Assembly (NCBI RefSeq): GCF_004343775.1 | Contig: NZ_PTXL01000003.1 | Location: forward strand, 186,001-250,000 | DNA length: 64,000 nt | Direction: 5' to 3' | Origin: Burkholderia sp. SRS-46 | Lineage (GTDB): Bacteria > Pseudomonadota > Gammaproteobacteria > Burkholderiales > Burkholderiaceae | In this document: piece by piece, positions 49,891-64,000 of the stretch | Numbering within the stretch: position 1 is the stretch's first letter | Layout of the letters: every line of letters starts with the position of its first letter | Notes under the pieces: model-generated | What the model was told of the DNA's origin: nothing | Databases searched by the model: none | What the model saw: only the letters and a program-made list of their open reading frames with translations | Program-made: the position numbers and the translations under genes

Positions 49891-50241
49891 TCATGCCACG
49901 ACGCGCCCGATCGAAGCGATCAGGTGCCCGCCGGCCCCGAAGTGCAGCATCAGAAAATAAACCGTCGACGACAGGACGACCGACAACAGCACGCCCACCC
50001 GCGGGAGAAACGTCAACAGCCCGAGCAGGAGCGCGAAGGCGGCCACGGCCTCGGCCGGATGCGTCTTCACCTCGCTGAGGAAACAGTACGCCACCAGGTT
50101 GACGAATACGGCGATCGGCAGGAGCTGGCGCAGCATTTGCTGGCGCTGGTTGTCGAACGGCAGCCGCACGATGCTCGGCAGCACGCGCACCACAAGGCTG
50201 ACTCCGAGCAGCAGGAGCGTTCCCAACATCGCGTTATTCAT
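49891..50241 (-). CDS. azlD: AzlD-like small subunit of branched-chain amino-acid exporter
   Basis: A 116-residue membrane protein with about four hydrophobic segments and the AzlD pattern (LLGVSLVVRVLPSIVRLPFDNQRQQMLRQLLPIAVFVNLVAY). It starts inside the end of the AzlC-like gene (ATGAATAA overlap), the usual arrangement for this two-subunit exporter of branched-chain or analogue amino acids. Here the pair is the distal part of a radical-SAM operon. Confidence 0.88.
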   Translation of the reverse strand: MNNAMLGTLLLLGVSLVVRVLPSIVRLPFDNQRQQMLRQLLPIAVFVNLVAYCFLSEVKTHPAEAVAAFALLLGLLTFLPRVGVLLSVVLSSTVYFLMLHFGAGGHLIASIGRVVA

Positions 50242-50962
50242 GGCCGGCCATCCCTGTTGTCTTCACCAGCAGCACATAGACGACCGCGATCCCCGGAATC
50301 CAGAAATACACCGGCCCCAGCAGATACTGCAGCACGAAGACGGCCACGAAGCCGATGACAATCGCCTTGCGCGGCGACACCGCCGCCGGTTGCCGCGCCC
50401 GCTCCGCCCGGCGCTTGCGCACGAAGTCGTAGATGTTCAGCAGCCCCAGCGCCAGCAGGATGGCGCTGACGGGGTAGGTCACGCCGGCCAGCGTCGACTT
50501 GACCACCGGCGGCAGGAACGCCGCCAGCGCGACGCCGGCCGCCGTCGACAGGCACCAGAACGCCGTGATCGTCCCGCGGATCACGAAGCGGCTGGCCACC
50601 CCGTCCGACTGCGTCTCGGTGGCATACGATTCGTCCGCCAGCCAGTGGGCGAGCGACACCTTCCCCAGCAGATTGACCTTCAGCGGCGCGGTGGCCGTCA
50701 GCGACATCGGCACGTAACGCAGGTTCATGCTCAGGATCACGAGAAAGGCCAGCCCCAGCGACGAGATGTCGATGCCCCTCGACGCGAACCCGAGGTAGGC
50801 GAACTGGCCGCTGCCGGTGAAGCCGATCAGGCTCATCAGAAAGACTTCGAAGGGTGTCCAGTTCAACTGCGCGGCGAGCACCCCGAAGAGCACGCCGATC
50901 GGCGTGAGGGCCAGCCCGACCGGGACGGTGCGCAAGAGTGCGGAGGCCGCGACGTTCCTCAC
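50234..50962 (-). CDS. azlC: AzlC-like large subunit of amino-acid exporter
   Basis: Inner-membrane permease of 242 residues. The GTG at 50962 has GGGGAGG five bases upstream and overlaps the stop of the radical SAM gene (GTGA), so translation is coupled. Family marks are LLRTVPVGLALTPIGVLFGV, SLIGFTGSGQFAYLGF, NLRYVPMSLTA and LADESYATE. AzlC/AzlD exports branched-chain amino acids and toxic analogues. Its coupling to peptide-modifying radical SAM genes suggests the exported solute is a product of this operon. Confidence 0.9.
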   Translation of the reverse strand: MRNVAASALLRTVPVGLALTPIGVLFGVLAAQLNWTPFEVFLMSLIGFTGSGQFAYLGFASRGIDISSLGLAFLVILSMNLRYVPMSLTATAPLKVNLLGKVSLAHWLADESYATETQSDGVASRFVIRGTITAFWCLSTAAGVALAAFLPPVVKSTLAGVTYPVSAILLALGLLNIYDFVRKRRAERARQPAAVSPRKAIVIGFVAVFVLQYLLGPVYFWIPGIAVVYVLLVKTTGMAGHE

Positions 50963-52728
50963 GAGGCCTCCCCGACGGAGTGCATCGACACGGCGGCACG
51001 CTGGCTGTCCTGCGCCCGCTCCGGACGGCACAGGTTCTGGGCCGAGATCGGCTCGACGACGAGGTCCGGCAGGAAGGCCTCGTCGAGGTAGTTCTTGATA
51101 TTCAGCATCGTTTGATAGAAGACGGTGTCGAGATGATCCAGGGCCTGGCGGATTTCGTCGGCATAGGTTTCGTACTGCGCGACAAAGCCGTCCCGCGTCA
51201 GGCTGTGCGCCTCCGCCTGTTGCACCAGCGCCAGGAAGAAATCGGCGGAGCGCCGCTGCACGGCGGCCTTGGCGGCAAACAGCGCGGCGACCTCGCACTG
51301 CTCGACCAGCTCCCCCTCGAGCAGGTTGCCGCCGATCACCGAGAGCATGCGGGCCATGTTGATGTCGATGTCGCGCATCGTCGAATCTTCCCTGCGGAGC
51401 AGGTCGACGTCGGCCAGGTCCGTGAGCACGTCGGCGATGCCCTGCACATACTTGTTGACGAACGCGATGCTGTCGACCTTGTAGTGCGAATACTCCGGCG
51501 TCAGCATGCCGCTCGCGGCCAGGTCCTTGTTCATCTCCAGCCCCGGATACGCATGCACCCGGCAGCTCATGTTGTAGAGGGTTGCGTGCTGGATGCGCAG
51601 CAGGAAGCTGACGTTGCGCCGCAAATCGCGGAACGTCGTATACGGATTGAACATCAGGAACCCGCTCGAGCTCGTCACGACGTTGTACTTCTGGAAGATC
51701 TCGACCGACGAGAGATTCTTGCTGGCGCTCGAGCCCTTGTTGAGCATCTTGAGCTGGTCGTCCGATCCGGCCTCGATGCCCATGAGCACGGAGATCAGGC
51801 CGGAGCGCTTGAGCAGGTCCACCACCTCGTCCTGCCCGTTGAACGAATCGGTGCGGCAGAAGATCTCGTACTCGACGCTCAACCCCTTCCGGATGATCCG
51901 CTCGGCGAATTCGCGCACGCGCGGCAGCCCGCGCTTGGGGCCCGGGAAGTTCTCGTCGCCGAAATACACCACCGGATAGATGTCGAGCCCCTGGTACTTG
52001 TTCAGCAGCGTCTCCAGCTCGTCGACGATGTTTTCCGCCGAGCGCGGCCGCCAGCGCGCGCCGCCGCCGATGTTGAAGAATTTGTATGCATTGCAGAACG
52101 AACACTTGGCGGGGCAGCCGCGGCTGCCGAGCATGGCGATCGCCGGCCGCAGCCCGGCCTTCAGCGCGCGTTCGAGCGTGTCGCGCGCCGGGAACGGCAG
52201 CGTGTCGAGATCCTCGATCGCCGGGCGGTCCTTGTTCTGCACGGCCTTGCCGGACGCGTCGCGATAGGCGACGCCCAGCACCTCCGGCAACGGCTGGCCC
52301 GACTCGTTGAACGTCAGCTCGCAGAGCTCCAGAAACGTGACTTCGCCCTCGCCGCGCACGATGAAGTCGATCTCGGGGTGGTTCTCGAGGATATCGACGG
52401 TCGCGTAGGTCGCATGCTCGCCGCCCAGCACGACCCGGGCGCCGGGGTGGACGCCCTTCACGAGCCGGGCAAGCTTGATCGCCTCTTCGAAGGTGTTGTA
52501 TTCGAGCGTGATGCCGATCAATTCGGGCGCGGCAACGCGCACCTCCTCGAAGATCTGATCGGTGGACAGCGCCAGCGCATAGCCGTCGATGATCTCGACG
52601 TTCGAGTAGCCGAACTTGCGCAGGTAAGCCGCGAGATAGCCAAGGCCGAGGTGTTCCGTCGGGTTGTTGTGAAGATACTCCGCCGACTTCTTGTGGGCGT
52701 TGACCAGGATGATCTTGTTGGCAGGCAT
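50959..52728 (-). CDS. Cobalamin-type radical SAM protein 1
   Basis: A 589-residue B12-binding-domain radical SAM protein. Residues 1-150 form a Rossmann-like B12-type domain (ILVNAHKKSAEYL, HLGLGYLAAYLRKFG, VVLGGEHATYA, FIVRGEGE). The cluster motif is CPAKCSFC, with Cys205, 209 and 212, and the core extends to about 430. The C-terminal 150 residues are helical, as in the two paralogues. The classic DxHxxG cobalamin motif was not seen, as is common in this superfamily. It lies 20 bases after paralogue 2 and is coupled to azlC. It is a likely methyl- or carbon-skeleton-modifying enzyme; the reaction is unknown. Confidence 0.88.
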   Translation of the reverse strand: MPANKIILVNAHKKSAEYLHNNPTEHLGLGYLAAYLRKFGYSNVEIIDGYALALSTDQIFEEVRVAAPELIGITLEYNTFEEAIKLARLVKGVHPGARVVLGGEHATYATVDILENHPEIDFIVRGEGEVTFLELCELTFNESGQPLPEVLGVAYRDASGKAVQNKDRPAIEDLDTLPFPARDTLERALKAGLRPAIAMLGSRGCPAKCSFCNAYKFFNIGGGARWRPRSAENIVDELETLLNKYQGLDIYPVVYFGDENFPGPKRGLPRVREFAERIIRKGLSVEYEIFCRTDSFNGQDEVVDLLKRSGLISVLMGIEAGSDDQLKMLNKGSSASKNLSSVEIFQKYNVVTSSSGFLMFNPYTTFRDLRRNVSFLLRIQHATLYNMSCRVHAYPGLEMNKDLAASGMLTPEYSHYKVDSIAFVNKYVQGIADVLTDLADVDLLRREDSTMRDIDINMARMLSVIGGNLLEGELVEQCEVAALFAAKAAVQRRSADFFLALVQQAEAHSLTRDGFVAQYETYADEIRQALDHLDTVFYQTMLNIKNYLDEAFLPDLVVEPISAQNLCRPERAQDSQRAAVSMHSVGEAS

Positions 52729-52748
52729 GGTGTCTCCGTCTCGCCGGT

Positions 52749-54443
52749 TCAGGCGGCATGCGCCGATTCGGCACGCGTTGCCCCGGCCGGGGCCGGTTGG
52801 CTTTCCAGCGCCGCATTCGCACGGTCGAGGAAGCGTGCATAGGACGACTCGAGCTCGTCGATCCGATCGGACAGCGTGTCGAAGAACCGATCCTTCTCCG
52901 GCCCGCGCTCGATATCGGGCTCGTTGCGCTCGAACCGCTCCATGACGCTCATGAAGAAGTCGAAAGCCAGGGTCTGGATGTCCTTCTGGGCACGGTCGAT
53001 CTGGTCCGATTCATCCCAGTCGCACGGAATGCTGAGGCGCGACAGCTCGTACGACATGATCGCGAAGTTGAATTCCACGAACCGGCCGACGGTGTCCAGC
53101 CGCTGCACGACGTCGTTCTGCGAAATGTCCATGTAGGCCGCGAATCGGGCCACCCGGGCATCGCGGAACTTGTATTCGTAAACCCCGTCGTAGTCGTCCG
53201 CGCCGGTCAGCAGCCCTTGCTCGCGCAGGTACGGAACGAACTCGTTGCCGCCATAGACGTCCAGCCGCGTCGAGAGATTCCAGACCGACGCATGGTGGAT
53301 CTTGCGCAGGTAGAGCGCATTGCGGCGCAGCGACGTGAACGAGCTGTACGGCAGGAACATGATGAAGCCGCTGGACGGCGTCGTCACGTTGTTGGTCTTG
53401 AGGTTGTCCAGCGCCTGGTCGATCTGGTGGACGGTGACGGCCTTGCGGAACAGCTTGAGCTCCTGGTCGTCGGACGCCTCGATGCCCATGAACACGCGCA
53501 CCATGCCGGCCTCGCGCAGGCGGCGCACGAGTTCGTAGTCGTCGTGGAACGTGTCCGCGCGCAGGAACGTTTCGAACATGATGCGAATGTCGCGCCGGAT
53601 GATCTCGTCGGCCAGCTCGTACGCATGGCGCCTCGCCTTGTTCCCCGGGCCGATGAACGTGTCGTCGTAGAACAGGATCACGGGATCGGCGTCGGCCGCA
53701 TAGCGGTCGACCAGCCCCTCGATCTCGTCGACCACGTTCGACGCGGAGCGGTGGCGCCACGGCCGCCCGCCCCCTTCGTTGTAGACGTGGGACGCATTGC
53801 AGAATAGGCAGCGCGCATAGCAGCCCCGGCTGCTCAGCACGGGAATGGCCGGCTGGATCCCCTTGCGAACGGCCCGCGCCAGCACCTGCCGGTCCGGGAA
53901 CGGCAGCTCGTCGAGGTTCTCGATGGCGCTCGTCGCCGGAATCTTGACGATGGAGCCGTCCTGCGAGCGGTAGAGGAGCCCGCCGATCTGGAGCCGCGTG
54001 CCGACGCCGTCCTTCAGGTACCGATAAAGGGCGATCATCGAGAATTCGCCCTCGCCGCGAATCACGAAATCGATCTCGGGGACTTTCGCCAGCACCTTTT
54101 CGCCGCAATAGGTGAAGTGAAGCCCGCCGAGCACGATCCGTGCATCGGGGCAGCGGCGCTTGATCTCCCGCCCGATCTCGATGGCATCGCCCGCGTTGCG
54201 CGACAGGGCCGTGATGCCCACGAGCACCGGACGCTCCCGTTCGCACAGTGCGGCGATCTCGCTCGCGCCAACCTTGTCGAGGTCGCAATCGACGATCAGC
54301 GTGCGTGCGCCGGCCGTCGCGAGGGCGCTCGACAGGTACGCGAGCGCGAGGTTCTCGCAGGTGAATTCCGCCGCTTCGGCCGTGCCGCTCGGTGGATTGC
54401 GGGGATTCACCAACAGCACATCGAAGTCGTTCGACAGGTCCAT
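52749..54443 (-). CDS. Cobalamin-type radical SAM protein 2
   Basis: Paralogue of the flanking radical SAM genes, 564 residues from the ATG at 54443, which has AGGA eight bases upstream (in-frame ATGs at 54452 and 54461 are alternatives). The N-terminal B12-type domain is FDVLLVNPRNPPSGT, IVLGGLHFTYC, FVIRGEGE. The cluster motif is CYARCLFC, with Cys208, 212 and 215. A helical C-terminus follows (LSDRIDELESSYARFLDRAN). It is separated from the upstream 55-residue peptide gene by an intrinsic terminator, so it depends on readthrough or its own promoter. Confidence 0.88.
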   Translation of the reverse strand: MDLSNDFDVLLVNPRNPPSGTAEAAEFTCENLALAYLSSALATAGARTLIVDCDLDKVGASEIAALCERERPVLVGITALSRNAGDAIEIGREIKRRCPDARIVLGGLHFTYCGEKVLAKVPEIDFVIRGEGEFSMIALYRYLKDGVGTRLQIGGLLYRSQDGSIVKIPATSAIENLDELPFPDRQVLARAVRKGIQPAIPVLSSRGCYARCLFCNASHVYNEGGGRPWRHRSASNVVDEIEGLVDRYAADADPVILFYDDTFIGPGNKARRHAYELADEIIRRDIRIMFETFLRADTFHDDYELVRRLREAGMVRVFMGIEASDDQELKLFRKAVTVHQIDQALDNLKTNNVTTPSSGFIMFLPYSSFTSLRRNALYLRKIHHASVWNLSTRLDVYGGNEFVPYLREQGLLTGADDYDGVYEYKFRDARVARFAAYMDISQNDVVQRLDTVGRFVEFNFAIMSYELSRLSIPCDWDESDQIDRAQKDIQTLAFDFFMSVMERFERNEPDIERGPEKDRFFDTLSDRIDELESSYARFLDRANAALESQPAPAGATRAESAHAA

Positions 54444-54497
54444 ATGGCGCATCCTGCTCATAGGAAATGGACGCCCGAGTGCGATCGCGCTGGGGCG

Positions 54498-54536
54498 AAA
54501 AAGAGGTTCCGCCGCGGTGCACCGCGGCAGAACCTC
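54498..54536 (-). terminator. Intrinsic terminator/attenuator after the peptide gene
   Basis: A 34-base near-perfect hairpin at 54503-54536: GAGGTTC pairs with GAACCTC, then one mismatch, then GCCGCGGT pairs with ACCGCGGC. On the minus strand it is followed directly by UUUUU (plus AAAAA at 54498-54502). It begins 12 bases after the stop of the 55-residue peptide and lies 55 bases before the next radical SAM start. Such a partial terminator would give far more peptide message than enzyme message. Confidence 0.9.
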
Positions 54537-54547
54537 AGGCAACGCGA

Positions 54548-54715
54548 TTACTCGCCGTCCTTCCGGACTTCGACGTCGCTTGCCTTGTCGGCGTGCCCTT
54601 GCTGCGCGGCTTCCTGCAGCTTGGCGGTCTTGACTTCGTTCAGCTTCTTCCAGATTTCGGTCGACAGCTTCACGTTCTGGTCATTGCCTTTGGGGGCCAT
54701 GAGGTTGATAGCCAT
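54548..54715 (-). CDS. 55-residue peptide, candidate RiPP-type precursor
   Basis: Small gene missed by length cut-offs. The ATG at 54715 has a textbook AAGGAG six bases upstream, and the stop is at 54548. The peptide starts MAINLMAPKGNDQNVKLSTE, has a central amphipathic helix-like part with the only Trp at residue 22 (IWKKLNEVKTAKLQEAAQQG), and a charged tail ending VEVRKDGE. There is no Cys, and only two Ser and two Thr, so it is a poor azole substrate but could be a substrate for radical SAM chemistry on Trp, Lys or aliphatic residues. It lies 80 bases after radical SAM 3 and is followed by a terminator. No homologue is recalled; the precursor role is inferred from size, strong ribosome site and context. 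Confidence 0.8.
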   Translation of the reverse strand: MAINLMAPKGNDQNVKLSTEIWKKLNEVKTAKLQEAAQQGHADKASDVEVRKDGE

Positions 54716-54795
54716 GACTTCTCCTTGGTTGACACGTTAAAGACGTGGCGTGAGCCACACGGAATTGCTCGCCAGCCCGCTTCGGCCGGACAGAT

Positions 54796-56484
54796 TCACC
54801 GCCCTAGTCCGGCTGGCGAAGCAACAGCAAGGTCGTCAGCGGATCGTTCGCTGATCAACCAATCATGTAACCCATGCAGCGCCGTGCTGAATTCGGTCTC
54901 GAGACTGTCCAGGGAATCGCCCAGTTCGCCCAGGTAGGCATGCCGGTCGTCGGCGATGGCCCGGGCATCGCCGGCGCCCTCGAAGTGCGCAATGGTCTGC
55001 AGGAAATACTGAACGTTCAGGCCGTTGATCGATTGCAGCCGCGTCATCGCCGGCGCCGCGATCCGGTTGGCCTTGGCCTCGTCCAGGCCGTGGATTTCGA
55101 CCGCGTTGAGAATGCGGTTCAACTCGGTGGAGACATGGCGCGGCAGCGCGTTGTCCCGCACGATTTCCACTTCGTCGTTGAGATGCAGCAGGTGGTCGGA
55201 CAAGCGCCCCATCATCGGTTCCTGGAAGCGGTACGAGTACACCTTGTTGGACTTGTCGTACCCTTGCAGCAGGCCCTTCTCGCGAAGCTCGTCCACCAGC
55301 TTCACGCCGGGAAAGAGCTGCAGCCGCTGCGACAGGTTCCAGAACGACGCATAGCCGAAGCGCGCCAGCAGCGTGGCCGTGGTGCGGATACCCTGCACCG
55401 TGCTGTACGGGTTGAACATGATGACGCCCGCGGTCGGCCCCAGCACGCGATGGCGCCGCAGCAGATCCAGGCCCTCGGTCAGCCGTTCGGTGGTGATGTC
55501 CTTCCCGTAGAAGCCCAGATCCTGCTGGTCGAACGATTCGATGCCGACGAAGGCCGCCTCCAGCCCGGCGCGCTTCAGGTCCGCCACGACCTCGTCGTCG
55601 TCGCCCTTGAGCGAATCGCCGCGCAGGTAAACCTCGAATGGCATGACCACGCCGCGGCGGACGATTTCGTGCGCCAGATCCCGCGCCCACGCCTTCGAGC
55701 GATTGCTTCCGTCGATGAAATTGGCGTCGTAGAAATAGAGCTTCTCGACGTTGCCCTTGAGGAAATAGTGCTCGTAGAGATGCTCGAGCTCGTCGACCAC
55801 GTTCTTGACCGTACGCCGCCGGATGGCCGCGCCGCCTCCCAGCCGCAGGTACTTGTTCGCGTTGCAGAAGGTGCACTTGAAGTTGCAGCCGCGCTGCGCG
55901 ATCACGCCGATCGCGGTCTTGAGATCGCGCCGGCGACAGTAGTCCAGCGTCGCGCGGTCGGCCAGCGGGAGCCCGTCCAGGTCTTCGATGCCGGGCCGGT
56001 CGGGATTCTTGAAGAGCGTGTTGGTGCGGATGTCCCGGAAATAGACGCCTGCGACGCCCAGCAGCTTGGGCGCCTTCTTCACCAGCTCCACGACCGCCTC
56101 TTCGCCTTCGCCGCGCACGACCGCCTGGATGGCCGGATGCCGGGCGAGGATTTCCTCGGCCGCATACGTGCAGTGCTCGCCGCCGACGAAGACGTAGACG
56201 TTGTCGAGCATCTGGCGCGCCAGCTCGGCGACTTCCAGCGCCGAGTCGAAGTTCAGGTAGTTCGCGGTCAGGCCGACGAAGTCCGGCTCGAATGCGAGAA
56301 AGGCGCCGACCGCCGCGTCGTTGGACAGGTTGTGCGCATAGCAGTCGAGGATCCTCACGACATGCCCGTCTTTCTTGAGCGCGGCGGACAGCAGGCCCAA
56401 CCCGAGATGCTCCATGATCGAGTAATGATCTTTCTCTCGATCGACGATCTTGATGTTGGGATTGATGAGAAGTACCTTAGCCAT
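54796..56484 (-). CDS. Cobalamin-type radical SAM protein 3
   Basis: Third paralogue, 562 residues, starting in an 8-base overlap with the M16 peptidase stop. The B12-type domain covers residues 1-150 (VLLINPNIKIVDREKDHYSI, HLGLGLLSAALKKDG, FVGGEHCTYA, VVRGEGE). The cluster motif is CNFKCTFC, with Cys200, 204 and 207. The GGGAAIRRRTVKNVVDELE block and helical C-terminus are shared with the other two. It is divergent enough from them to suggest separate reactions rather than recent duplication. Confidence 0.88.
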   Translation of the reverse strand: MAKVLLINPNIKIVDREKDHYSIMEHLGLGLLSAALKKDGHVVRILDCYAHNLSNDAAVGAFLAFEPDFVGLTANYLNFDSALEVAELARQMLDNVYVFVGGEHCTYAAEEILARHPAIQAVVRGEGEEAVVELVKKAPKLLGVAGVYFRDIRTNTLFKNPDRPGIEDLDGLPLADRATLDYCRRRDLKTAIGVIAQRGCNFKCTFCNANKYLRLGGGAAIRRRTVKNVVDELEHLYEHYFLKGNVEKLYFYDANFIDGSNRSKAWARDLAHEIVRRGVVMPFEVYLRGDSLKGDDDEVVADLKRAGLEAAFVGIESFDQQDLGFYGKDITTERLTEGLDLLRRHRVLGPTAGVIMFNPYSTVQGIRTTATLLARFGYASFWNLSQRLQLFPGVKLVDELREKGLLQGYDKSNKVYSYRFQEPMMGRLSDHLLHLNDEVEIVRDNALPRHVSTELNRILNAVEIHGLDEAKANRIAAPAMTRLQSINGLNVQYFLQTIAHFEGAGDARAIADDRHAYLGELGDSLDSLETEFSTALHGLHDWLISERSADDLAVASPAGLGR

Positions 56485-57742
56485 TCGCTACCCCATGGCA
56501 GATGAGCGGCGGCGCCCGGAGCACGGCTTCGGTCACCTCCTGCAGGCTCTGCGGTGTCACGCCCCGGATAAAGTCCAGGTCGTCCTCGTAGTCGAAGTAC
56601 CGATCGAACCACATCTCGTGCTTGAGCAGCCGCATCAGCCGATTGCGCGGATCGTCGAGGCGCATCAGCAGCGTGCGCACGAGCGCCTGCCGGGCCTCTT
56701 CCTGCACCCCGCGGCCCTGCACGATGGCCGGCATGGCCGCCGCGAGCTCGAAGACATGCTCCATCACCCGTTCGAGCTTGTCGTAGGCCACCATCCCGCG
56801 GATGATCAGATGCCCGTGGTCCTTGAACAGATGGCACTCCGAATTGACGGCATACAGCAGCGCCTTGTCGACGCGCAGTGCCTTGAAGAGCACCGAATGC
56901 TCGTCCTCGCCGAAGATCAGGCTCATCGCATAAAGCGACACGCGGCGATCGTCGAAGCGCGGGAACGCCGGGTAGCCGAGCATGAAATAGCCCACCCCCA
57001 ACGAGGTCGGAATCGGCGCGCGGCGCGCGGTAAAGCCGTGCGCCGGCATCGGCCGGACCGCCTCCGCCACGGGCGAGCGCGGCAACTTCCCGAGCGTGCG
57101 TTCGACCGATGTCAGCAGCCCGGTCGACAGCATATCGCCGACGAGTGCCACCGCGATCTTGCCGTGCCGGTTGTCGTCGCCGATGGCGCGATGCACCTTC
57201 GCGCCGGCCAGCGCCGCGATATCGGCCACCCGCCCCCCGATGGGGCGCCACATCCGCTCGTCGCCGTAGGCGGCCTTGAGGAACTCGTCGTCGATCCGGC
57301 TGATCTCGCTGCTCTCGAGCGTCGCGACCTCCTCGACGAGAACGGAGCGCTCCTGCTCGACGGCTTCGTCGTCGAGCGGTTGCGGATTCAGGAACGCGTC
57401 GAGCCATTCCCCGAGCACCGCGGCGTCCTGTTTCAGCGCGCACACGACGAAGTAGGTTTCGTTTCGCTCGGTGAAGGCCTCGACCGACAGCACCCTCGCC
57501 TTGGCGGGCCCGATCATCCGGTTGACCTGGGCCACCCGTGCGTGCTCGCAGAAATGGGCCAGCCCCGCTTCGCCGGACGGATCGTCATAAGCGCCCCGGC
57601 CGACGCCCACCCCCATCGAAATGGCGTGCATGCCGGGCGCCGATTCCCAGATCAGCGACACACCGTTGACGATCGAGCGCATGCCCCGGCCCTGCGGGAC
57701 GACGGGAGTGCGCTGCGCGTCGAGACTCAAGCTGTTTTGCAT
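56477..57742 (-). CDS. M16-family (insulinase-type) zinc metallopeptidase
   Basis: Peptidase of 421 residues. The inverted zinc motif HFCEH is at residues 63-67 (DPSGEAGLAHFCEHARV), and the distal Glu is in LVEEVATLESSE about 75 residues later, so it appears catalytically complete. A second non-catalytic M16 module follows. M16 enzymes trim leader peptides in some RiPP pathways and in PQQ maturation. It is the first gene of the radical SAM operon. The ATG at 57742 lacks a clear ribosome site; 57682 is an alternative start. Confidence 0.88.
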   Translation of the reverse strand: MQNSLSLDAQRTPVVPQGRGMRSIVNGVSLIWESAPGMHAISMGVGVGRGAYDDPSGEAGLAHFCEHARVAQVNRMIGPAKARVLSVEAFTERNETYFVVCALKQDAAVLGEWLDAFLNPQPLDDEAVEQERSVLVEEVATLESSEISRIDDEFLKAAYGDERMWRPIGGRVADIAALAGAKVHRAIGDDNRHGKIAVALVGDMLSTGLLTSVERTLGKLPRSPVAEAVRPMPAHGFTARRAPIPTSLGVGYFMLGYPAFPRFDDRRVSLYAMSLIFGEDEHSVLFKALRVDKALLYAVNSECHLFKDHGHLIIRGMVAYDKLERVMEHVFELAAAMPAIVQGRGVQEEARQALVRTLLMRLDDPRNRLMRLLKHEMWFDRYFDYEDDLDFIRGVTPQSLQEVTEAVLRAPPLICHGVANG

Positions 57743-57858
57743 GGACAGATGCGCGGTGACGAATCGGGAAACACGGCACGCGTTTCAGCGCCGCGCATAG
57801 CGCGACACGCCCCATCGGGCGTGCCTGCCGCAACGGCATCAGCACGAACACGAACCAT
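57727..57858 (-). CDS. Doubtful 43-residue ORF overlapping the M16 start
   Basis: Minus-strand ATG at 57858 with AGAGGG six bases upstream. The peptide begins MVRVRADAVAAGTPDGACR and ends DSSPRICPCKTA, overlapping the M16 start by 16 bases. The Cys/Ser-containing end would suit azole formation by operon B. Against it: codon third positions are much less GC-biased than in neighbouring genes, and the frame extends upstream to 57969, as random frames do. Confidence 0.22.
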   Translation of the reverse strand: MVRVRADAVAAGTPDGACRAMRGAETRAVFPDSSPRICPCKTA

Positions 57859-58499
57859 GACGCCCTCTCTGTCGAATGAATGTGGTCCCGAACGGCCATC
57901 GGTCAGCGAACCGGCATCGCAATCGATGAAGGTCGACGCGCGATCGGAAAACTCGACGCGTTGGCGCATTCTCGTTGCTTCGTCCGGCAAGGGCCCGGGT
58001 CATGCAGCAGTCTTGTTGCTCTTTTGATTCCTGATGCAGTCATGCTCTCGGCCGCGCCCCCATTGCCACCCGCGACTGCGCGCAAGCGCGTCGAATCGCT
58101 TTATGCCGTTTCATTCAACTTCGGCAATCCACGCGGAGACCGACCCGGGGAGACATGCTATCCGATTTATCCGGAAATTGAATCTGTGAAAATTAAAAAA
58201 ATGCGTCTCGCGACGCATGATTTGATTTAGGTAAATAAATTCGGATGGAACCGATTCCGTGCTCGAACCGCATTTGAACCAAAGCGAACCGGCATCGCAA
58301 GGCATGGCTCTATTAGTTAAATTGTTTAACGCCACAAAACAATTAATGGAATCATTCCGTTCGCATCGATTCCCGCCGAAGCGTTACACCATTCCTGCTT
58401 CGGGATGTTCATGCCAATTCGTGAAAACACTCTAAAGCTGGCCGGGTACGGCATCAAATATCAAGTCGGTTTTTCGTGAACGCCTTACCCCAAAGCCGG
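57743..58499. other. Gap between the two peptide-modification operons
   Basis: About 757 bases. It holds the terminator at 58191-58218, an AT-rich stretch at about 58160-58420, and an exact 18-base direct repeat (AGCGAACCGGCATCGCAA) at 57905-57922 and 58283-58300. The promoter of the M16-led operon must lie here. A 28-codon minus frame (58412-58326, MNIPKQEWCNASAGIDANGM and onward) has no ribosome site. No gene is firmly supported. Confidence 0.5.
58191..58218 (-). terminator. Intrinsic terminator closing the YcaO operon
   Basis: Stem ATGCGTC/GACGCAT with a 4-base loop at 58201-58218, followed on the minus strand by UUUUUU, AA, UUUU (plus AATTAAAAAA at 58191-58200). It lies about 280 bases past the stop of the cysteine-protease gene and separates transcription of the YcaO operon from the radical SAM operon. 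Confidence 0.75.
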
Positions 58500-58970
58500 C
58501 TACGGAAGCCGTGCTGCGACGTGCGACGACACGAACGTGCCGGACCAGTCATAGTGGTCGCGATATGCACGGCGAAAGTCGTCATAGGCGCAATCACCCG
58601 GCCCATGCAGCGAATCGGCGACGACAAGCCCTGCTTCACCGCGGATGCCGTGCAGCACGACCAGATGCCACCCGATGAAATGGCGCATGCAGGCAAGCAC
58701 CGGATGCCCCGCGGCGATCTGCGCGCGCAACTCTTCAAGCGCCAGGGCGCGCTGGAACTCCCCGAATTGCAGCCCTGCCGCGGCGAGCGCCCGCGCCGGC
58801 GCGCAGGCCTGATCGAAATTGTCGCCGAGCACCGAGCGGGCGAACTCGGCCTGTCCGGGCAGTGGCGTGTGTCCGTAGTAACGCTTGAGCGCCACGCACA
58901 CGGCGGCCCAGCACAGCATGCGTCCGGCTTGCTGCTCGACCTGCAGCGGCAACAGCAGGCTGCCGGCCAT
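58500..58970 (-). CDS. Papain/C39-like cysteine protease
   Basis: A 156-residue protease-like protein. The catalytic signature is QQAGRMLCWAAVCVALKRYYG (Gln oxyanion residue, nucleophile Cys in CWAA), with the His in FIGWHLVVLHGI and the supporting Asp in VVADSLHGPGD. It resembles stand-alone papain-like C39_2 proteins, lacking the ABC-transporter part of bacteriocin exporters. Its ATG directly follows the previous stop (TGAATG). It is last in the YcaO operon and is a plausible leader-cleaving enzyme. Confidence 0.8.
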   Translation of the reverse strand: MAGSLLLPLQVEQQAGRMLCWAAVCVALKRYYGHTPLPGQAEFARSVLGDNFDQACAPARALAAAGLQFGEFQRALALEELRAQIAAGHPVLACMRHFIGWHLVVLHGIRGEAGLVVADSLHGPGDCAYDDFRRAYRDHYDWSGTFVSSHVAARLP

Positions 58971-61217
58971 TCAGCCGACCACCACGACGCGCCGGTCTTC
59001 CAGACGACGGACCGTCACTGCGCAGTCGCTGACCGGGCAGTCGAGCCGTTGCGCGAGCTGTGCGATGGACAGCGGTTCGTCCAGACCCTCGACGATCGTG
59101 CGCTCGAGGCCGGTCAGTTCGATCGGAGCCAGGTAACGCTTGAAGCGGACCTGCAAGCATTCGCCGCTGCGCACGATCGATGCGATCGCGCCGCTCGGCT
59201 GCACGATGAATCGCGCCAGCACGTCGTTTTCGCCGGCCGGAACCAGGTAGTGCCGCCCGGCATGCAGCAACTCGGTCACGCCGTAGCGCCAGCAGGACCA
59301 GCACGCTTCGCGCACGGTCGCCGGCAACTCCACGCCGCAGCGAGAATCCGACAGCAAGGTCTGTACGGCGGCAAGATCGATCTGCGGAAACTGCGCGGCC
59401 ACGAGGCCTGACACCAATCGGTTCAGCGCGTCGTATTGCGCGCCGGCGAAGGGCGGCGCGCCGGCCTTCTGCCACGACGCCGCGATCGCCCAGCCTTCGG
59501 TCGCGATGCAAAGCTCCGCCTGCCCAGGCTCGCTCAGCCGCGCAAACCCGATCGTACGCGCTGAGGGAGCTAAGGCGATGCCGCGTGCCGTGGCGGCATC
59601 GCCGAGTGCCTTGCTCAGGACGGCCGAGATTTGCTCGACGTCGGCTTCACGGTCGTTCAGCGGCTTGCCGAGCACCGCTTGTGCGACGCGTGGCGCGAGT
59701 GCCTCGGGCAACGGATTCGAAAGCCAGTGGATCGCGGCGCGCAGCCAGTTGTCGACCGCCGCTTCTGTGTCGCCGCGCAGATTGTCCAGTTGCGCGTGGC
59801 ACAGGTTCATGTAGAGCAAGTCGCTTTCGGTCCGCGCGCTGGAGGTCACGAAGAATGCTCGCCGGTAATACAGCGTCGCTTCGTCCAGCGCACCGATCTT
59901 CTTGTAGATGCGCGCCAGGTTCAGGCAGTTGATGTAGATCAGGTGCCAGTCTCGTCCGGGCAAATCCTGCAGGCGGCTCTCGATCTCCTTTTCCAGCGCG
60001 AGCGCCCCGTCGACGTCGCCGGATTTCAGTTTCGCGAGTGCCGAGATGTTCAGCAGGTACAGCGCCAGGCGCGGCGCGCTGTCCGGATCGAAATGCTGAC
60101 GTGCCAGCTCGAAATAGCTGTTCGCGACGCGCGCGTGGCCGGTCATCACGAGACCCCAGGCCTTGCTTTGATACAGCGACGCCTTGACGGCGTCGGGCAT
60201 CGCCTCGTCGGGCAGCATGCCCTGTGCCGCGCGCTCGAACTTCATCAACGCGATGGCGATATTCTGCTTGCGCGCCTCGACCGCCGCACGCAGCAGCGGA
60301 TCGAGTGCGCCGGTGTCGATGCGATCGAGGATCGTCAGCGCGGCATCGTAGCCGCCTTCGGCGAAACACTGCCCCGCCGAGGCCAGCAGGAATTCGACAT
60401 TCTGGGCCGGCGCATGCAATGCCAGGCAGGTCTGAAGATACGCGGGCAGTGCCAACGATCCCAACCGCTGCAGTTCGCCGGCGCCGGGCCTGTCGCTGCG
60501 CGCGTTCGGCGCGATCAACAGGCTGCCGTCGCGCACACGCAGATGCGGCGGCAGCGGCGAATCCGCGTTGGCGAGCCATTCCTCGCGCACGAGGCCGGCG
60601 AGCGCACTGCCCGCATGCCGTGGTGCTTGCGCGGGCGGCGTATCGAATGCCACCCATTCGATACCGGCGGCCGGCGCAGGCACGCCGTCTCCGCAGGCAA
60701 TGCACCACAGGTCGAAACCATGGCACTGCGCTGCATCGGCGAGCAATCTGAGCAGGTGCAGATTTTCGCTGCCCCAGACATGCCCGTTCTGCGGCGCCAC
60801 GACGAATACGTGGCTGATCGCGTAGGCACGAACACGGGCAGCGATGCGGCTCGCACAATCGTGAGCGGTCGCGAAATTGCGATCGCCGCCGCCTTCCGCG
60901 TCGATCAGCTGGCTGACCGTATCGGCATACGCGTCGGAGCTCCGGTTGCCGGCGTGAAGATCGGGCTGTATCGGTTGCGGATCAGGGAGGTCCAGTTGCC
61001 GGCACAGCTCGCGGGCCAGCCAGTGACCGCGCCACGGCCCGCAGCTCAGGTCCGAGAATATGCACTGCCGGCCGGGTTCGGACACGCCCGCGTCGCGCGC
61101 CAGCTGTGCGAAATCGTGAAAGCCGTAAACGGTGATCCGCCGCGCGTGCGGCCCTCTGACGATCGGCAGAGCCTGAGGCAGTGTGTCAGCCGTGTGTGAC
61201 GTCATGATCGCTCGCAC
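58971..61217 (-). CDS. Large TPR-like protein of the YcaO operon, with C-terminal winged-helix-like end
   Basis: A 748-residue protein not assignable to a named family. The N-terminal 220 residues are a mixed alpha/beta domain (ITVYGFHDFAQLARDAG, SHVFVVAPQNGHVWGSENL). The middle, about 260-520, is built of TPR-like helix pairs (LYQSKAWGLVMTGHARVANSYFELARQHF, NCLNLARIYKKIGALDEATLYYRRAFF). The end (TGLERTIVEGLDEPLSIAQL, AQRLDCPVSDCAVTVRRLEDRRVVVV) looks like a small winged helix, possibly a peptide-recognition element. It overlaps SagB's end by 32 bases (or 20 with an ATG at 61205). It may be a scaffold or leader-binding subunit. Confidence 0.75.
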   Translation of the reverse strand: MRAIMTSHTADTLPQALPIVRGPHARRITVYGFHDFAQLARDAGVSEPGRQCIFSDLSCGPWRGHWLARELCRQLDLPDPQPIQPDLHAGNRSSDAYADTVSQLIDAEGGGDRNFATAHDCASRIAARVRAYAISHVFVVAPQNGHVWGSENLHLLRLLADAAQCHGFDLWCIACGDGVPAPAAGIEWVAFDTPPAQAPRHAGSALAGLVREEWLANADSPLPPHLRVRDGSLLIAPNARSDRPGAGELQRLGSLALPAYLQTCLALHAPAQNVEFLLASAGQCFAEGGYDAALTILDRIDTGALDPLLRAAVEARKQNIAIALMKFERAAQGMLPDEAMPDAVKASLYQSKAWGLVMTGHARVANSYFELARQHFDPDSAPRLALYLLNISALAKLKSGDVDGALALEKEIESRLQDLPGRDWHLIYINCLNLARIYKKIGALDEATLYYRRAFFVTSSARTESDLLYMNLCHAQLDNLRGDTEAAVDNWLRAAIHWLSNPLPEALAPRVAQAVLGKPLNDREADVEQISAVLSKALGDAATARGIALAPSARTIGFARLSEPGQAELCIATEGWAIAASWQKAGAPPFAGAQYDALNRLVSGLVAAQFPQIDLAAVQTLLSDSRCGVELPATVREACWSCWRYGVTELLHAGRHYLVPAGENDVLARFIVQPSGAIASIVRSGECLQVRFKRYLAPIELTGLERTIVEGLDEPLSIAQLAQRLDCPVSDCAVTVRRLEDRRVVVVG

Positions 61218-62007
61218 ACAGGCCGTTCAGATACAGAATCGAGTGGTTGAGCCCGTCCAGCCCGAGTAGTTCGTTGACCAGACGGTCGTAGAATCCGCCC
61301 AGGTTGATCGCGCCGAAGCCGAGTGCGGTCGCGCCCAGGTTGATGTTCTGCGCGACGTGGCCGGCCTCGAATAGCGTGAAGCGGTAGCCCTTGTCGCGAT
61401 ACTTGAACACCGAGCGCTCAAACAGGGCGGTGATGAATATCGTGACCGACAGCTTCGTGGCGAGATCGCTCTGAAATTCCACCAGCGCCCGAGCGAGCGC
61501 GTCATCGTAGTTGCCCGGCCGGATCGAATGCAGCGCGTTCGCTTCGGGCGAATAGTGATAGATGCCGGCCGGCAGTCCTTCGACGCAGCCGGCATGGTAG
61601 AAGTACAGCTCCAGCGGATACAGCGCGCCGCCGGACGGAACGGTGCGAAACCCGCGGTCGATATACGGATTGTCCCGGTTGTCGCGCGTGACGCCGTACG
61701 CGAAATGCAGCACGGTGCGCAGTTGCAGCAGCGAAATGGGCGTCGGCCGGATGTCGTGTGGCGTGACACGGCCGAGCACCGTTTCGGCGAAGCCGCGCTC
61801 GATCGGCGCCAGCGCATCGGGCAGCGCAATGGTCGCCAGGTTCCGGTACGGCAGGCTTGGATAGAGGTTGCTCATCTCCTCCACCACGCGCTCGCGCGGC
61901 AGCGCGATGTCGTAGTGACCGGTTTTCGAGCTCTCGTGGAACTGCTCCCAGGCCGTGCCCGCGAATTCGCCGGCCAGCTCCGTGTCGAGCCACTTCGTGT
62001 TCAGCAT
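61186..62007 (-). CDS. SagB-type FMN-dependent dehydrogenase
   Basis: Nitroreductase-fold oxidoreductase of 273 residues from the ATG at 62007. Family blocks are RPTPISLLQLRTVLHFAYGVTR, the FMN-phosphate loop RTVPSGGALYPLELYFY, GIYHYSPEANALHSIR, and AGHVAQNINLGATALGFGAINLGG. SagB-type enzymes oxidise azolines to azoles in TOMM biosynthesis. It lies 53 bases after the YcaO gene, in keeping with a YcaO/ThiF/SagB synthetase. Confidence 0.9.
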   Translation of the reverse strand: MLNTKWLDTELAGEFAGTAWEQFHESSKTGHYDIALPRERVVEEMSNLYPSLPYRNLATIALPDALAPIERGFAETVLGRVTPHDIRPTPISLLQLRTVLHFAYGVTRDNRDNPYIDRGFRTVPSGGALYPLELYFYHAGCVEGLPAGIYHYSPEANALHSIRPGNYDDALARALVEFQSDLATKLSVTIFITALFERSVFKYRDKGYRFTLFEAGHVAQNINLGATALGFGAINLGGFYDRLVNELLGLDGLNHSILYLNGLCASDHDVTHG

Positions 62008-62060
62008 CGGTCTGTCTCGCAAAAAGAAAGGCGCGCAATAGAAACACGCATGGGTCTTGC

Positions 62061-63392
62061 TCAGGGGAACGGATGCGGGTAACGGTAATCGCCGTCCGCC
62101 GCCGTGATGCCGCGGTAGCCGAGGCGCTGCGGGAGGGTCCACAGCCGCTTGCCGCCCAGGGCGCGGTGGTGATACCCCATGAACAGCGGGTGATAGCCCG
62201 GCACCAGCGCACGCACCACCGTCAGCCCCAGTTCGCGGACATCGGGCGTCGTGATGTCGCACGCGAGCGCACGGTAGCCGGAATGCCGGATGCGCGACAC
62301 GACGCGGTCGAGCTGCTCGCGTGCGCTGCCGCCGGAGAGATCCGGCATGTCGTGCACGTCGATGCTGGACTCGGACTGGAACAGAAATTCCGCATGACGC
62401 GTGACTGCCGGATTGGTCCAGAAATTGACGTGGTCGACTTGTCCGATGATGTTGTCGAACTCGTCGTCGCGCGCGACCGGTTCAACTTCGCTTTTGATCT
62501 GGAATGCGTAGCGTTCGGTGTGCGCCAGTTCCTCGAGCGCCTTCCTCACCGCCTCCTCGGCACCGGGTGCCGCCGAGGCAGCGACGACGATCGGAACGTA
62601 ATCGCGCTCGTGGCGCCCGACGGCCAGCACCACGGGTACGCCGGTTTCGTTGCTGATGTCCATCAGATGGATGCGGTAGCCGACGTCCTCGAAACGCGCC
62701 ACCAAATCGCGATTGGCGGCCGACAACGTCGCGATGCGAATGCGCGGCCGCGGCAGGCGTGCCTGCCACGTGATCGAGAAACAGTCGCGTTCGATCACCT
62801 CGCACAGGCCGCCGAGCGCCGCTTCCTTGTAGCTGCAATGGCACGACAGGCCGGTCGAGATCGGCTGCGCGATCGGCGATTCGTCGCCGCCCTCGTAGAA
62901 GAAGTAAGGCACATAGACCATCGCGGCCGGCACGTGAATCGCGGCGCCGGTCGCCAGATCCACCGCGGGCGTCCAACGGACCGGCGACCCGGTCGTGAAC
63001 GGGTCGAACATGAAGCCGTCGAAGCGGTGCTGCTGTTCCGAATACAATGCGAAGTCCGCCGGATGCACGCAGTCGAACGGCGCCTGGTCGTACGTCACCA
63101 GCGGAAAATCGCGCTTGTCGTAGATCGCCGCGCAATACCGTTCGATCGCCTCGCCGATCGCCTTTGCGAGCGCCATGCTGCGCGTGGTCGCGGCGCCGCC
63201 GCCCACCGCGAAATTTCGGTATTGGCCGAATGCCTCGGTATTGGCCGCCGTGCAGTTGAAGCGGATGAAGCGGGGCGAATCCGCCTCGGCGGGATGCTCG
63301 CGCACCTGCGTGATCAGTCCGACATGCTCGTCGACGAGGAGGGGCAGAACGTCCGTCAGGCGCGCGAGCGGCGCGTTCATGTCAATCTTCAT
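62061..63392 (-). CDS. YcaO-family azoline-forming cyclodehydratase (PxPxP type)
   Basis: ATP-dependent YcaO enzyme of 443 residues. The ATP/Mg-binding Glu motifs are present: ALAKAIGEAIERYCA (Glu81, Glu84) and YKEAALGGLCEVIERDCFS (Glu190, Glu198, Glu201). The C-terminus ends in PHPFP, the PxPxP motif needed by TOMM cyclodehydratases and absent from ribosomal-protein and thioamide YcaOs. It starts in an 11-base overlap with the ThiF-like gene. Predicted reaction: backbone cyclisation of Cys/Ser/Thr in a precursor to azolines, together with the ThiF-like partner. Confidence 0.92.
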   Translation of the reverse strand: MKIDMNAPLARLTDVLPLLVDEHVGLITQVREHPAEADSPRFIRFNCTAANTEAFGQYRNFAVGGGAATTRSMALAKAIGEAIERYCAAIYDKRDFPLVTYDQAPFDCVHPADFALYSEQQHRFDGFMFDPFTTGSPVRWTPAVDLATGAAIHVPAAMVYVPYFFYEGGDESPIAQPISTGLSCHCSYKEAALGGLCEVIERDCFSITWQARLPRPRIRIATLSAANRDLVARFEDVGYRIHLMDISNETGVPVVLAVGRHERDYVPIVVAASAAPGAEEAVRKALEELAHTERYAFQIKSEVEPVARDDEFDNIIGQVDHVNFWTNPAVTRHAEFLFQSESSIDVHDMPDLSGGSAREQLDRVVSRIRHSGYRALACDITTPDVRELGLTVVRALVPGYHPLFMGYHHRALGGKRLWTLPQRLGYRGITAADGDYRYPHPFP

Positions 63393-64000
63393 AATGGCCC
63401 ACGGTCTGGCGGATTTCGTTCCACGCTTCCGTCGAAGTCAGTTGCTTGTGAACGTTCGTCTGCGGATGCGTGCGCAGTGCGCTGCACACCGGGCAGCGCG
63501 GCGCCTTCAGCAATTTGCGGCGGCTCATGCTTCCGTTCAGCAGATTGATTTCGCACAGCGTGCCGACTTCCCATTGGATATTCGATTTGAACTTGACGAG
63601 GTCGAACTGCGCGACGCTTGCCAGTACCTGCAGCATCGACCGATGGTACGCGGCCACATGCTGACCGTGGTACGCGTGACGCTCCATGAAGCGCTTTTCC
63701 TCAAATCCGCCGGCATTGGAATTCTGGCGCGTCTTCAGGCAGGCAAAGCATGCCGAATCGCCCGGTATCACGAGCGGCCCGCAATAGCCGACCAGGTTCT
63801 GCAGTAGCACCGGGTAGAACGCAATGCCGTTCGTCACCGCGTGTTCGTTCCAACGTTCGAGCAGAAAGGCCCCGCCGAACTCGGACGCCGCGACGACGAA
63901 GCCACACGCCGACGATGCTTCGTCAAGGAAGGTGTCCTCGTCGACAATATGGCTGCGTCGGCTGCGCCAGAATGCGGCGTCCAGCTCGAATCCGTCGTCG
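63382..64000 (-). CDS. ThiF/E1-like cyclodehydratase partner (ocin-ThiF-like), 5' end beyond right edge
   Basis: The last 205 residues of a gene whose start lies beyond the window; the frame is open to base 64000. It has the C-terminal traits of E1-like TOMM partner proteins: GYCGPLVIPGDSACFACLKT with one CxxC, and CPVCSALRTHP with a second CxxC, together forming a structural Zn site. These proteins bind the leader and present the substrate to YcaO. It overlaps the YcaO start by 11 bases, so translation is coupled. Confidence 0.85.
   Translation of the reverse strand, partial: DDGFELDAAFWRSRRSHIVDEDTFLDEASSACGFVVAASEFGGAFLLERWNEHAVTNGIAFYPVLLQNLVGYCGPLVIPGDSACFACLKTRQNSNAGGFEEKRFMERHAYHGQHVAAYHRSMLQVLASVAQFDLVKFKSNIQWEVGTLCEINLLNGSMSRRKLLKAPRCPVCSALRTHPQTNVHKQLTSTEAWNEIRQTVGHYED

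Follow-up and report, generated by a model that had tools for sequence, protein, structure and literature searches.

To understand what is made by a group of genes in which a short peptide gene lies amongst three cobalamin-binding radical SAM proteins, a peptidase and a pair of putative exporter proteins, we examined a seven-gene operon, here termed operon A, in the window, a stretch of 64,000 nucleotides from Burkholderia sp. SRS-46. The host genome is 8.59 Mb in size and is close to Burkholderia stagnalis. We favour the reading, to which we give a probability of roughly one half, that operon A is a self-contained peptide-templated pathway, in which the peptide PEP would be the precursor or scaffold modified by the radical SAM proteins RS1, RS2 and RS3 (RS1-3), the M16 peptidase would release the product and AzlC/AzlD (AzlCD) would export it.

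Gene organisation of operon A

Operon A runs on the minus strand from 57742 to 49891 and comprises, in order, M16, RS1, PEP, RS2, RS3, AzlC and AzlD. The first-pass annotation had placed an M16 peptidase on the same strand as three B12-type radical SAM proteins, a strongly initiated, Cys-free gene of 55 residues and AzlC/AzlD, assignments that our domain and motif analysis bears out. The M16 peptidase (56477..57742, minus strand, 421 aa) matches Pfam PF00675 (E 2e-11) and PF05193 (E 1.4e-10) and retains an intact HxxEH active-site motif (HFCEH at residue 63); its nearest solved sequence is 3hdi (E 8.5e-25), and it shares 89% amino acid identity with the M16 peptidase of B. stagnalis. RS1 (54796..56484, minus strand, 562 aa), RS2 (52749..54443, minus strand, 564 aa) and RS3 (50959..52728, minus strand, 589 aa) each contain Pfam B12-binding and Radical_SAM domains. 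The start of RS2 was taken at the ATG at 54443, following the B. stagnalis annotation, and not at the TTG at 54542, and its Pfam scan used a 570-aa form, six codons longer than the assigned one. PEP, the candidate precursor or scaffold (54548..54715, minus strand), has a strong ribosome-binding site, AAGGAG, ahead of its ATG, and directly 3′ of it lies a terminator- or attenuator-like hairpin (54503..54536, minus strand) of 15 pairs followed by TTTTT. The operon ends with an AzlC-family membrane protein (50234..50962, minus strand, 242 aa, GTG start; PF03591, E 3.2e-23) and an AzlD-family membrane protein (49891..50241, minus strand, 116 aa; PF05437, E 5.7e-6). Against the NCBIfam azlC model, AzlC scores 23 bits, far below the cut-off of 332. 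The Pfam scan of AzlC ran from 50950, four codons short of the start at 50962 that we assigned following B. stagnalis; for AzlD, a later start is annotated in that species.

Overlaps of 4-8 bases had been reported at most junctions, which overstates their number: they are present at three of the six (M16/RS1, 8 bases; RS3/AzlC, 4 bases; AzlC/AzlD, 8 bases), the others being gaps of 80 bases (RS1-PEP), 104 bases (PEP-RS2, with the hairpin inside) and 20 bases (RS2-RS3).

Operon A is conserved as a unit in Burkholderia stagnalis

According to its annotation, B. stagnalis contains the same seven genes in identical order. The two operons are 92.4% identical over 7881 aligned bases, the match (49909-57778) beginning within the final codons of AzlD and ending shortly upstream of M16, and dN is well below dS in each of the six genes that gave values, all but AzlD (for this comparison the B. 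stagnalis M16, 424 aa at full length, was begun two codons past its annotated ATG). The flanks differ between the two genomes on both sides. Upstream of operon A in B. stagnalis, an MFS gene adjoins M16, and the window genome has a thiazole/oxazole peptide operon in between, with the MFS match resuming at 66067-67508. Downstream in B. stagnalis are a LuxR gene and an AMP-binding/ketoacyl-synthase cluster. Since the seven genes keep a fixed order in two species with different surroundings, operon A acts as a unit.

Both neighbouring systems were considered as partners of operon A. Linkage with the LuxR and AMP-binding/ketoacyl-synthase cluster of B. stagnalis was rejected: the AMP-binding gene, the sole query taken from that cluster, lies about 80 kb from operon A in the window genome (at C16:324368, against about 235900-243700), and a further genome, G018, contains the AMP-binding gene without a match to operon A. 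The thiazole/oxazole peptide operon (58500 to about 64920) is adjacent to operon A on the same strand in the window genome, an arrangement that would favour a single pathway with shared enzymes. We consider this very improbable, given that the operon A site of B. stagnalis lacks the thiazole operon, that the B. stagnalis genome (G009) gives no YcaO gene match at E 1e-40, that another genome, G013, contains the YcaO gene and no operon A match, and that the thiazole operon has a candidate precursor of its own. The adjacent thiazole-peptide operon is a system separate from operon A.

B. stagnalis YJ-2, which carries operon A, is a cultured soil isolate, and in the available text of the paper on its genome the predicted clusters number 20, of which one or more are RiPP-like (PMC12195442). 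Its replicon plas2 is also the best record in the plasmid collection for another part of the window, positions 20001-45000 (91% identity, 65% query coverage).

PEP looks like a real gene

The translation of PEP is MAINLMAPKGNDQNVKLSTEIWKKLNEVKTAKLQEAAQQGHADKASDVEVRKDGE, without Tyr and without Cys, and the same 55-codon frame is annotated in B. stagnalis as a hypothetical protein (WP_155628734.1). The two PEP genes differ at 11 bases without any indel, and the excess of changes at third positions is slight (7 of 11, P 0.039). All six amino acid changes fall within residues 36-46, leaving residues 1-35 and the C-terminus, residues 47-55 (DVEVRKDGE), invariant; a span that short has a P of 0.0005 in a test chosen after the changes were known. 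With 6 amino acid changes, where the permutation null averages 8.2, the total is only weakly low (P 0.087). dN is 0.048 and dS 0.159, and GC3 is 0.82, compared with 0.85-0.92 in the other six genes. We rejected the possibility that PEP is a chance ORF, since the frame is kept without indel, the changes are clustered and dN is lower than dS; judged by this comparison, PEP looks like a real gene. It has no match in Pfam or NCBIfam at E values up to 10, and amongst solved structures only 5le2 (E 0.017) and 8fiq (E 0.86) were returned. In both species a precursor-like peptide gene stands beside modifying enzymes, as the putative substrate of RS1-3. Co-occurrence of peptide and enzymes across species, with specific residues of the peptide conserved, had been anticipated in the first-pass annotation. 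This expectation is borne out in both species found, where residues 1-35 and 47-55 are kept, but these are two sister species only and the co-occurrence may therefore represent one evolutionary event.

The hairpin that follows PEP folds at -34.3 kcal/mol (z -6.4) in the window and at -32.5 kcal/mol (z -5.9) in B. stagnalis, and on the strength of these z values we regard it as beyond chance, despite a plain terminator scan that was not (one found, against 0.4 +/- 0.6 in shuffles). Between the species, two pairs are changed in both bases and a third in one base, and none of the 15 is lost; hence the pairing is conserved through compensatory change. Terminators that lie within an operon, just downstream of a small gene, generally mark that gene for production in excess of the genes behind it, and the position of this terminator-like hairpin suggests that PEP is probably made in excess of the downstream genes.

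The conserved, variable and conserved segments of PEP also fit the leader, linker and core of a conventional RiPP. Residues 1-35 would then be the leader, 36-46 the linker and DVEVRKDGE a core with C-methylated valines, with M16 removing the leader and a multi-residue peptide being exported. AzlCD systems export branched-chain amino acids and their analogues, a role that for this pair agrees with the family names only, and are not known to export peptides, which argues against such a product. We consider the conventional RiPP unlikely, and return below to the enzymes that might make it.

RS1-3 are related cobalamin radical SAM proteins with different residues at the position of OxsB Asn186

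With an N-terminal B12-binding domain and a CxxxCxxC core (CNFKCTFC at residue 200 of RS1, CYARCLFC at 208 of RS2 and CPAKCSFC at 205 of RS3), RS1-3 have the features of class B cobalamin-dependent radical SAM enzymes. Amongst solved sequences, OxsB is the best match to the radical SAM proteins (E 3.6e-33), followed by TokK, and OxsB is likewise the best match to RS3 (E 4.4e-26). Asn186 of OxsB sits under the cobalt, as described in the available text of PMC13331322. The residue aligned with it is Asn75 in RS1, Leu80 in RS2 and Glu76 in RS3, and Glu is found here only in RS3 and its orthologue amongst 47 aligned rows. The occurrence of Asn, Leu and Glu at this position in the alignment points to three different chemistries, and RS1-3 are thus probably chemically different from one another. 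The type of reaction cannot be read from the family, because cobalamin radical SAM enzymes of peptide pathways may either methylate, as ApyD does (PMC10635010, available text), or cross-link, as does BipD (PMC12707348, available text).

None of RS1-3 scores above the cut-off of any NCBIfam model, RiPP models included. Their best model is BchE (117, 159 and 176 bits, respectively, against a cut-off of 481), and scores with TIGR03975, the model for RiPP maturation radical SAM C-methyltransferases, are 55.9, 95.6 and 97.9 bits (cut-off 281.85). OxsB and BchE are thus the closest solved and curated relatives of RS1-3, and RS1 keeps the Asn of OxsB; unlike the role that we propose for RS1-3, however, both act on non-peptide substrates, a nucleotide in the case of OxsB. 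Pfam and NCBIfam scans of the seven proteins gave no match to RRE-type models, which are weak detectors. We rejected a defence function: PADLOC gave just weak matches of RS1-3 to PDC-M51A (E 1.1e-7 to 6.6e-9).

In the more careful of two trees, built on 25 rows that we selected from the 55 of the other, RS1-3 and their B. stagnalis copies form one clade (UFBoot 96/SH-aLRT 94), in which long branches separate RS1-3 and the join of RS1 and RS2 carries a long-branch warning. The same six rows group in the quick 55-row tree (SH-aLRT 94), which included 48 of the 106 relatives left after length filtering. ApyD falls outside this group on a long branch, its row having been read from the first Met and probably including a spurious N-terminal extension. 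The nearest other clade consists of proteins from Burkholderia and other Pseudomonadota.

Orthologues of operon A were found in two species only

Amongst the collections searched, orthologues of operon A were found only in the window species and B. stagnalis. With RS1 as query at E 1e-60, matches came from 2 of 61 relatives and, within the class, from the host genome alone (1 of 369); at E 1e-50, a single plasmid record out of 72,556 matched. In the genus, a radical SAM alignment (A1) matched 4 of 65 genomes (1e-50); the same four came up amongst 398 of the family (1e-60), and 7 of 398 genomes of the phylum, host included, matched at 1e-70; the genus, family, class, phylum and relative sets overlap. 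Three radical SAM matches occur only in the window genome and in B. stagnalis (G009), two other genomes (G024 and G450) having two weaker relatives each. In a collection of 84,980 species, relatives were found in 137 of 253 pattern-matched stretches, and amongst the best 80 of these 137, which were kept, B. stagnalis has 95% identity and the next by score 32%; the pattern scan requires exact short patterns and therefore divergent orthologues could be missed. A search of viral contigs returned eight weak relatives.

The other genes follow the same distribution. At E values up to 1, PEP matched 5 of 61 genomes, two of them clearly (3e-31 and 1e-26) and three at chance-like values (0.2-0.8), and it matched one plasmid record. 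Amongst loci L016-L104, relatives of M16, AzlC, AzlD and PEP at E 1e-3 were confined to the two from B. stagnalis, and none was detected at 1e-4 in loci L114-L129.

Near the nearest radical SAM relatives, 8 of 9 scanned ORFs matched models. These neighbours include ketoacyl synthase, AMP-binding, phosphodiesterase, DegT aminotransferase and methyltransferase genes, UDP-GlcNAc 2-epimerase (twice) and a SPASM radical SAM protein. As most are of non-peptide type, the wider radical SAM group does not look peptide-specific, which counts against an automatic RiPP reading; the SPASM neighbour may provide a peptide link for one of the loci. The first-pass annotation had held that its peptide reading would be refuted if homologous radical SAM genes regularly occurred without any small ORF or belonged to a known non-peptide pathway. 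This is partly the case, though only for relatives at about 30-37% identity.

The same neighbourhoods, with their polyketide-like and sugar-nucleotide genes, favour an explanation in which RS1-3 have a small-molecule substrate (a lipid, sugar, nucleotide or amino acid, for instance) and PEP is an accessory small protein, whether chaperone, partner or regulator, with M16 and AzlCD serving another step or immunity. The solved match to OxsB fits it too, as does BchE as the top model for RS1-3, though far below cut-off. It accounts less well for the peptidase that heads operon A, for the hairpin that PEP has of its own, as expected of a gene made in excess, and for the confinement of the changes in PEP to a single 11-residue stretch. 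We regard an accessory role for PEP as possible, though not probable.

Comparison with characterised pathways

The first-pass annotation could assign this gene combination to no described class. Our survey agrees, since amongst the matches listed in open-licence literature (titles and abstract starts) we found no described pathway with this combination of genes. Only two papers there name both AzlC and radical SAM, one on acid tolerance in Fibrobacter and the other on oral biofilm.

PQQ biosynthesis employs the peptide PqqA, PqqE and PqqF/G, and PqqE is a SPASM-type radical SAM protein that acts on a Glu/Tyr peptide. Operon A likewise combines a small peptide, radical SAM proteins and an M16 peptidase, and a small product, as in PQQ biosynthesis, is proposed for it. 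In contrast to the PQQ pathway, RS1-3 contain B12-binding domains and have no SPASM match, PEP is without Tyr, and Pqq models gave no match in the operon A proteins.

The pearlin tmo pathway to 3-thiahomoleucine is similar in its components: a leucine-like amino acid is made on a short carrier peptide with the help of a metalloprotease, a transporter, a cobalamin radical SAM enzyme and other enzymes (PMC9303977, available text). The pearlin product is thus a single amino acid resembling leucine, and a small amino-acid-like product exported by AzlCD is what we propose for operon A. Unlike tmo, which has one radical SAM enzyme, operon A has three, and it is without PEARL, MNIO or an M50/M103 protease, having M16 and AzlCD instead. 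Characterised pearlin clusters contain a TldD/E-like or M50 protease, according to the available text of PMC10885120; the peptidase of operon A is of the M16 family. No PEARL was found in the seven genes, and PF04738 matched neither of two genomes (the host, G000, and B. stagnalis, G009) in a search in which the control was also without match. By analogy, operon A may work like the pearlin or PQQ pathway, and its seven genes lack defining features of either.

Several cobalamin radical SAM enzymes acting on one peptide are a feature of bottromycin and proteusin pathways, and the three such methyltransferases named for bottromycin in the available text of PMC5682303 provide a precedent for the conventional RiPP considered above. 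The same text gives a Cx7Cx2C motif for the bottromycin and polytheonamide enzymes, whereas RS1-3 have CxxxCxxC and no Cx7Cx2C, which speaks against this precedent, and PEP is without a Pfam or NCBIfam match. Aminopyruvatide (apy) is, like operon A, from Burkholderia, and ApyD is a peptide-methylating enzyme (PMC10635010, available text), but the seven genes of operon A include no MNIO or P450. With the ApyD model NF050148, RS1-3 score 91.7, 85.3 and 102.1 bits, below the cut-off of 750, and ApyD has no match in the host genome at E 1e-100. Peptide-templated radical SAM biosynthesis is our preferred assignment for operon A, with a real chance that it is a new class.

A proposed pathway for operon A

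In the peptide-templated pathway that we favour, an excess of PEP would be produced and would bind to RS1-3 as precursor or scaffold. RS1, RS2 and RS3 would have arisen by duplication followed by divergence in the environment of the cobalt, so that each might install a different radical modification on PEP (C-methylation, a cross-link or ring formation). M16 would then cut the modified part from PEP, a task that enzymes of this family perform in certain other peptide pathways; M16 proteases act in the removal of class III lanthipeptide leaders, for example (PMC10885120, available text). Finally, AzlC/AzlD would export a small amino-acid-like product. We infer that PEP is the substrate, that the chemistries differ and that M16 releases the product, and likewise the sequence of the steps, what the product is and that it is exported. 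A narrower and rather doubtful version would make operon A a PEARL-less peptide-scaffold class, in which RS1-3, with three different cobalt environments, successively modify a stretch inside PEP or at its C-terminus, M16 frees one or two of the residues so rebuilt, and a branched non-proteinogenic amino acid, possibly an antimetabolite, leaves through AzlCD.

If PEP is modified, operon A would represent the triplication of one ancestral cobalamin radical SAM enzyme within a single operon, the copies having drifted to different residues under the cobalt. RS1-3 would then be a natural set for studying what the lower face of cobalamin contributes to the choice between methylation and ring or bond formation. 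Through this pathway, products derived from peptides would be connected with AzlCD, a family of amino-acid exporters, and release by M16 with cobalamin radical SAM chemistry. Operon A is compact and could be tested by co-expression.

The region upstream of M16

The leader/promoter region upstream of M16 (57840..58398, minus strand) is conserved with B. stagnalis, at 77-78% identity (77.6% over the match at 57840-58356), and contains a block of 35 bases (58224-58258) that is identical except for one base. A cobalamin riboswitch was rejected, as Rfam gave no match in the window at the gathering score; on the other strand of the leader, Rfam returned a chance-level snoRNA match (E 3.3). We also rejected the idea that the true precursor is hidden in the leader, since six of the seven minus-strand ORFs of at least 20 aa are broken in B. 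stagnalis. The remaining one (58295-58227, 22 aa) has the same ends and an unbroken frame in the two species, and may encode a short leader peptide upstream of M16.

Sequences flanking operon A

Upstream of operon A (minus strand, 57742-49891) lies a 35-base block (window 58224-58258) that differs at a single base from its counterpart in B. stagnalis and sits inside a 22-codon ORF (58295-58227, 22 aa) that is open in both the window genome and B. stagnalis. The block is likely to be a promoter or operator, or else a piece of the 22-codon ORF. No sigma-70-type match was found within 57700-58520. In the window genome, the block is followed on the same strand by a terminator-like hairpin (58218-58201).

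Beside operon A, a thiazole/oxazole peptide operon occupies window positions 58500-64000 and continues to about 64923 (L008:7613-7924, in the locus that spans past the window edge). It encodes a SagC/leader-binding protein, a SagD-type YcaO, a SagB-type dehydrogenase, a protein of 748 aa that weakly matches HTH and TPR domains, and a C70/C39-like cysteine protease, and its candidate precursor, located barely outside the window edge, has the C-terminal end SSCCCTCTPACCCTAVAVVKAAA. This operon is absent from the corresponding site in B. stagnalis. There, operon A is adjoined by an MFS gene of the metabolite/H+ symporter type, which shares 93% identity with that of the window genome (window coordinates 66055-67503, L008:9056-10504); its product may be a second transporter for the product of operon A.

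Related genes in other genomes

A copy of the YcaO gene of the thiazole/oxazole operon (73-83% identity) is present in another Burkholderia genome (G013:C346:21964-23191), in which a search for operon A gave no match. The match to this copy is split into three overlapping pieces, which therefore lie in different frames, as would be expected of either a broken gene or assembly errors.

B. stagnalis plas2 also carries a cluster (L135, 213898-226435) in which a LuxR-type regulator precedes genes for AMP-binding, GNAT, C45 peptidase, ferredoxin, MFS, acyl carrier and ketoacyl synthase proteins. Operon A and the AMP-binding gene of this cluster are separable. Two further Burkholderia genomes (G024:C1 and G450:C27, loci L114-L117) each contain two cobalamin radical SAM genes approximately 13 kb apart. 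In G024 they are accompanied by genes of the ketoacyl synthase, AMP-binding, type I phosphodiesterase and DegT aminotransferase families, and this region probably represents a different, uncharacterised pathway.
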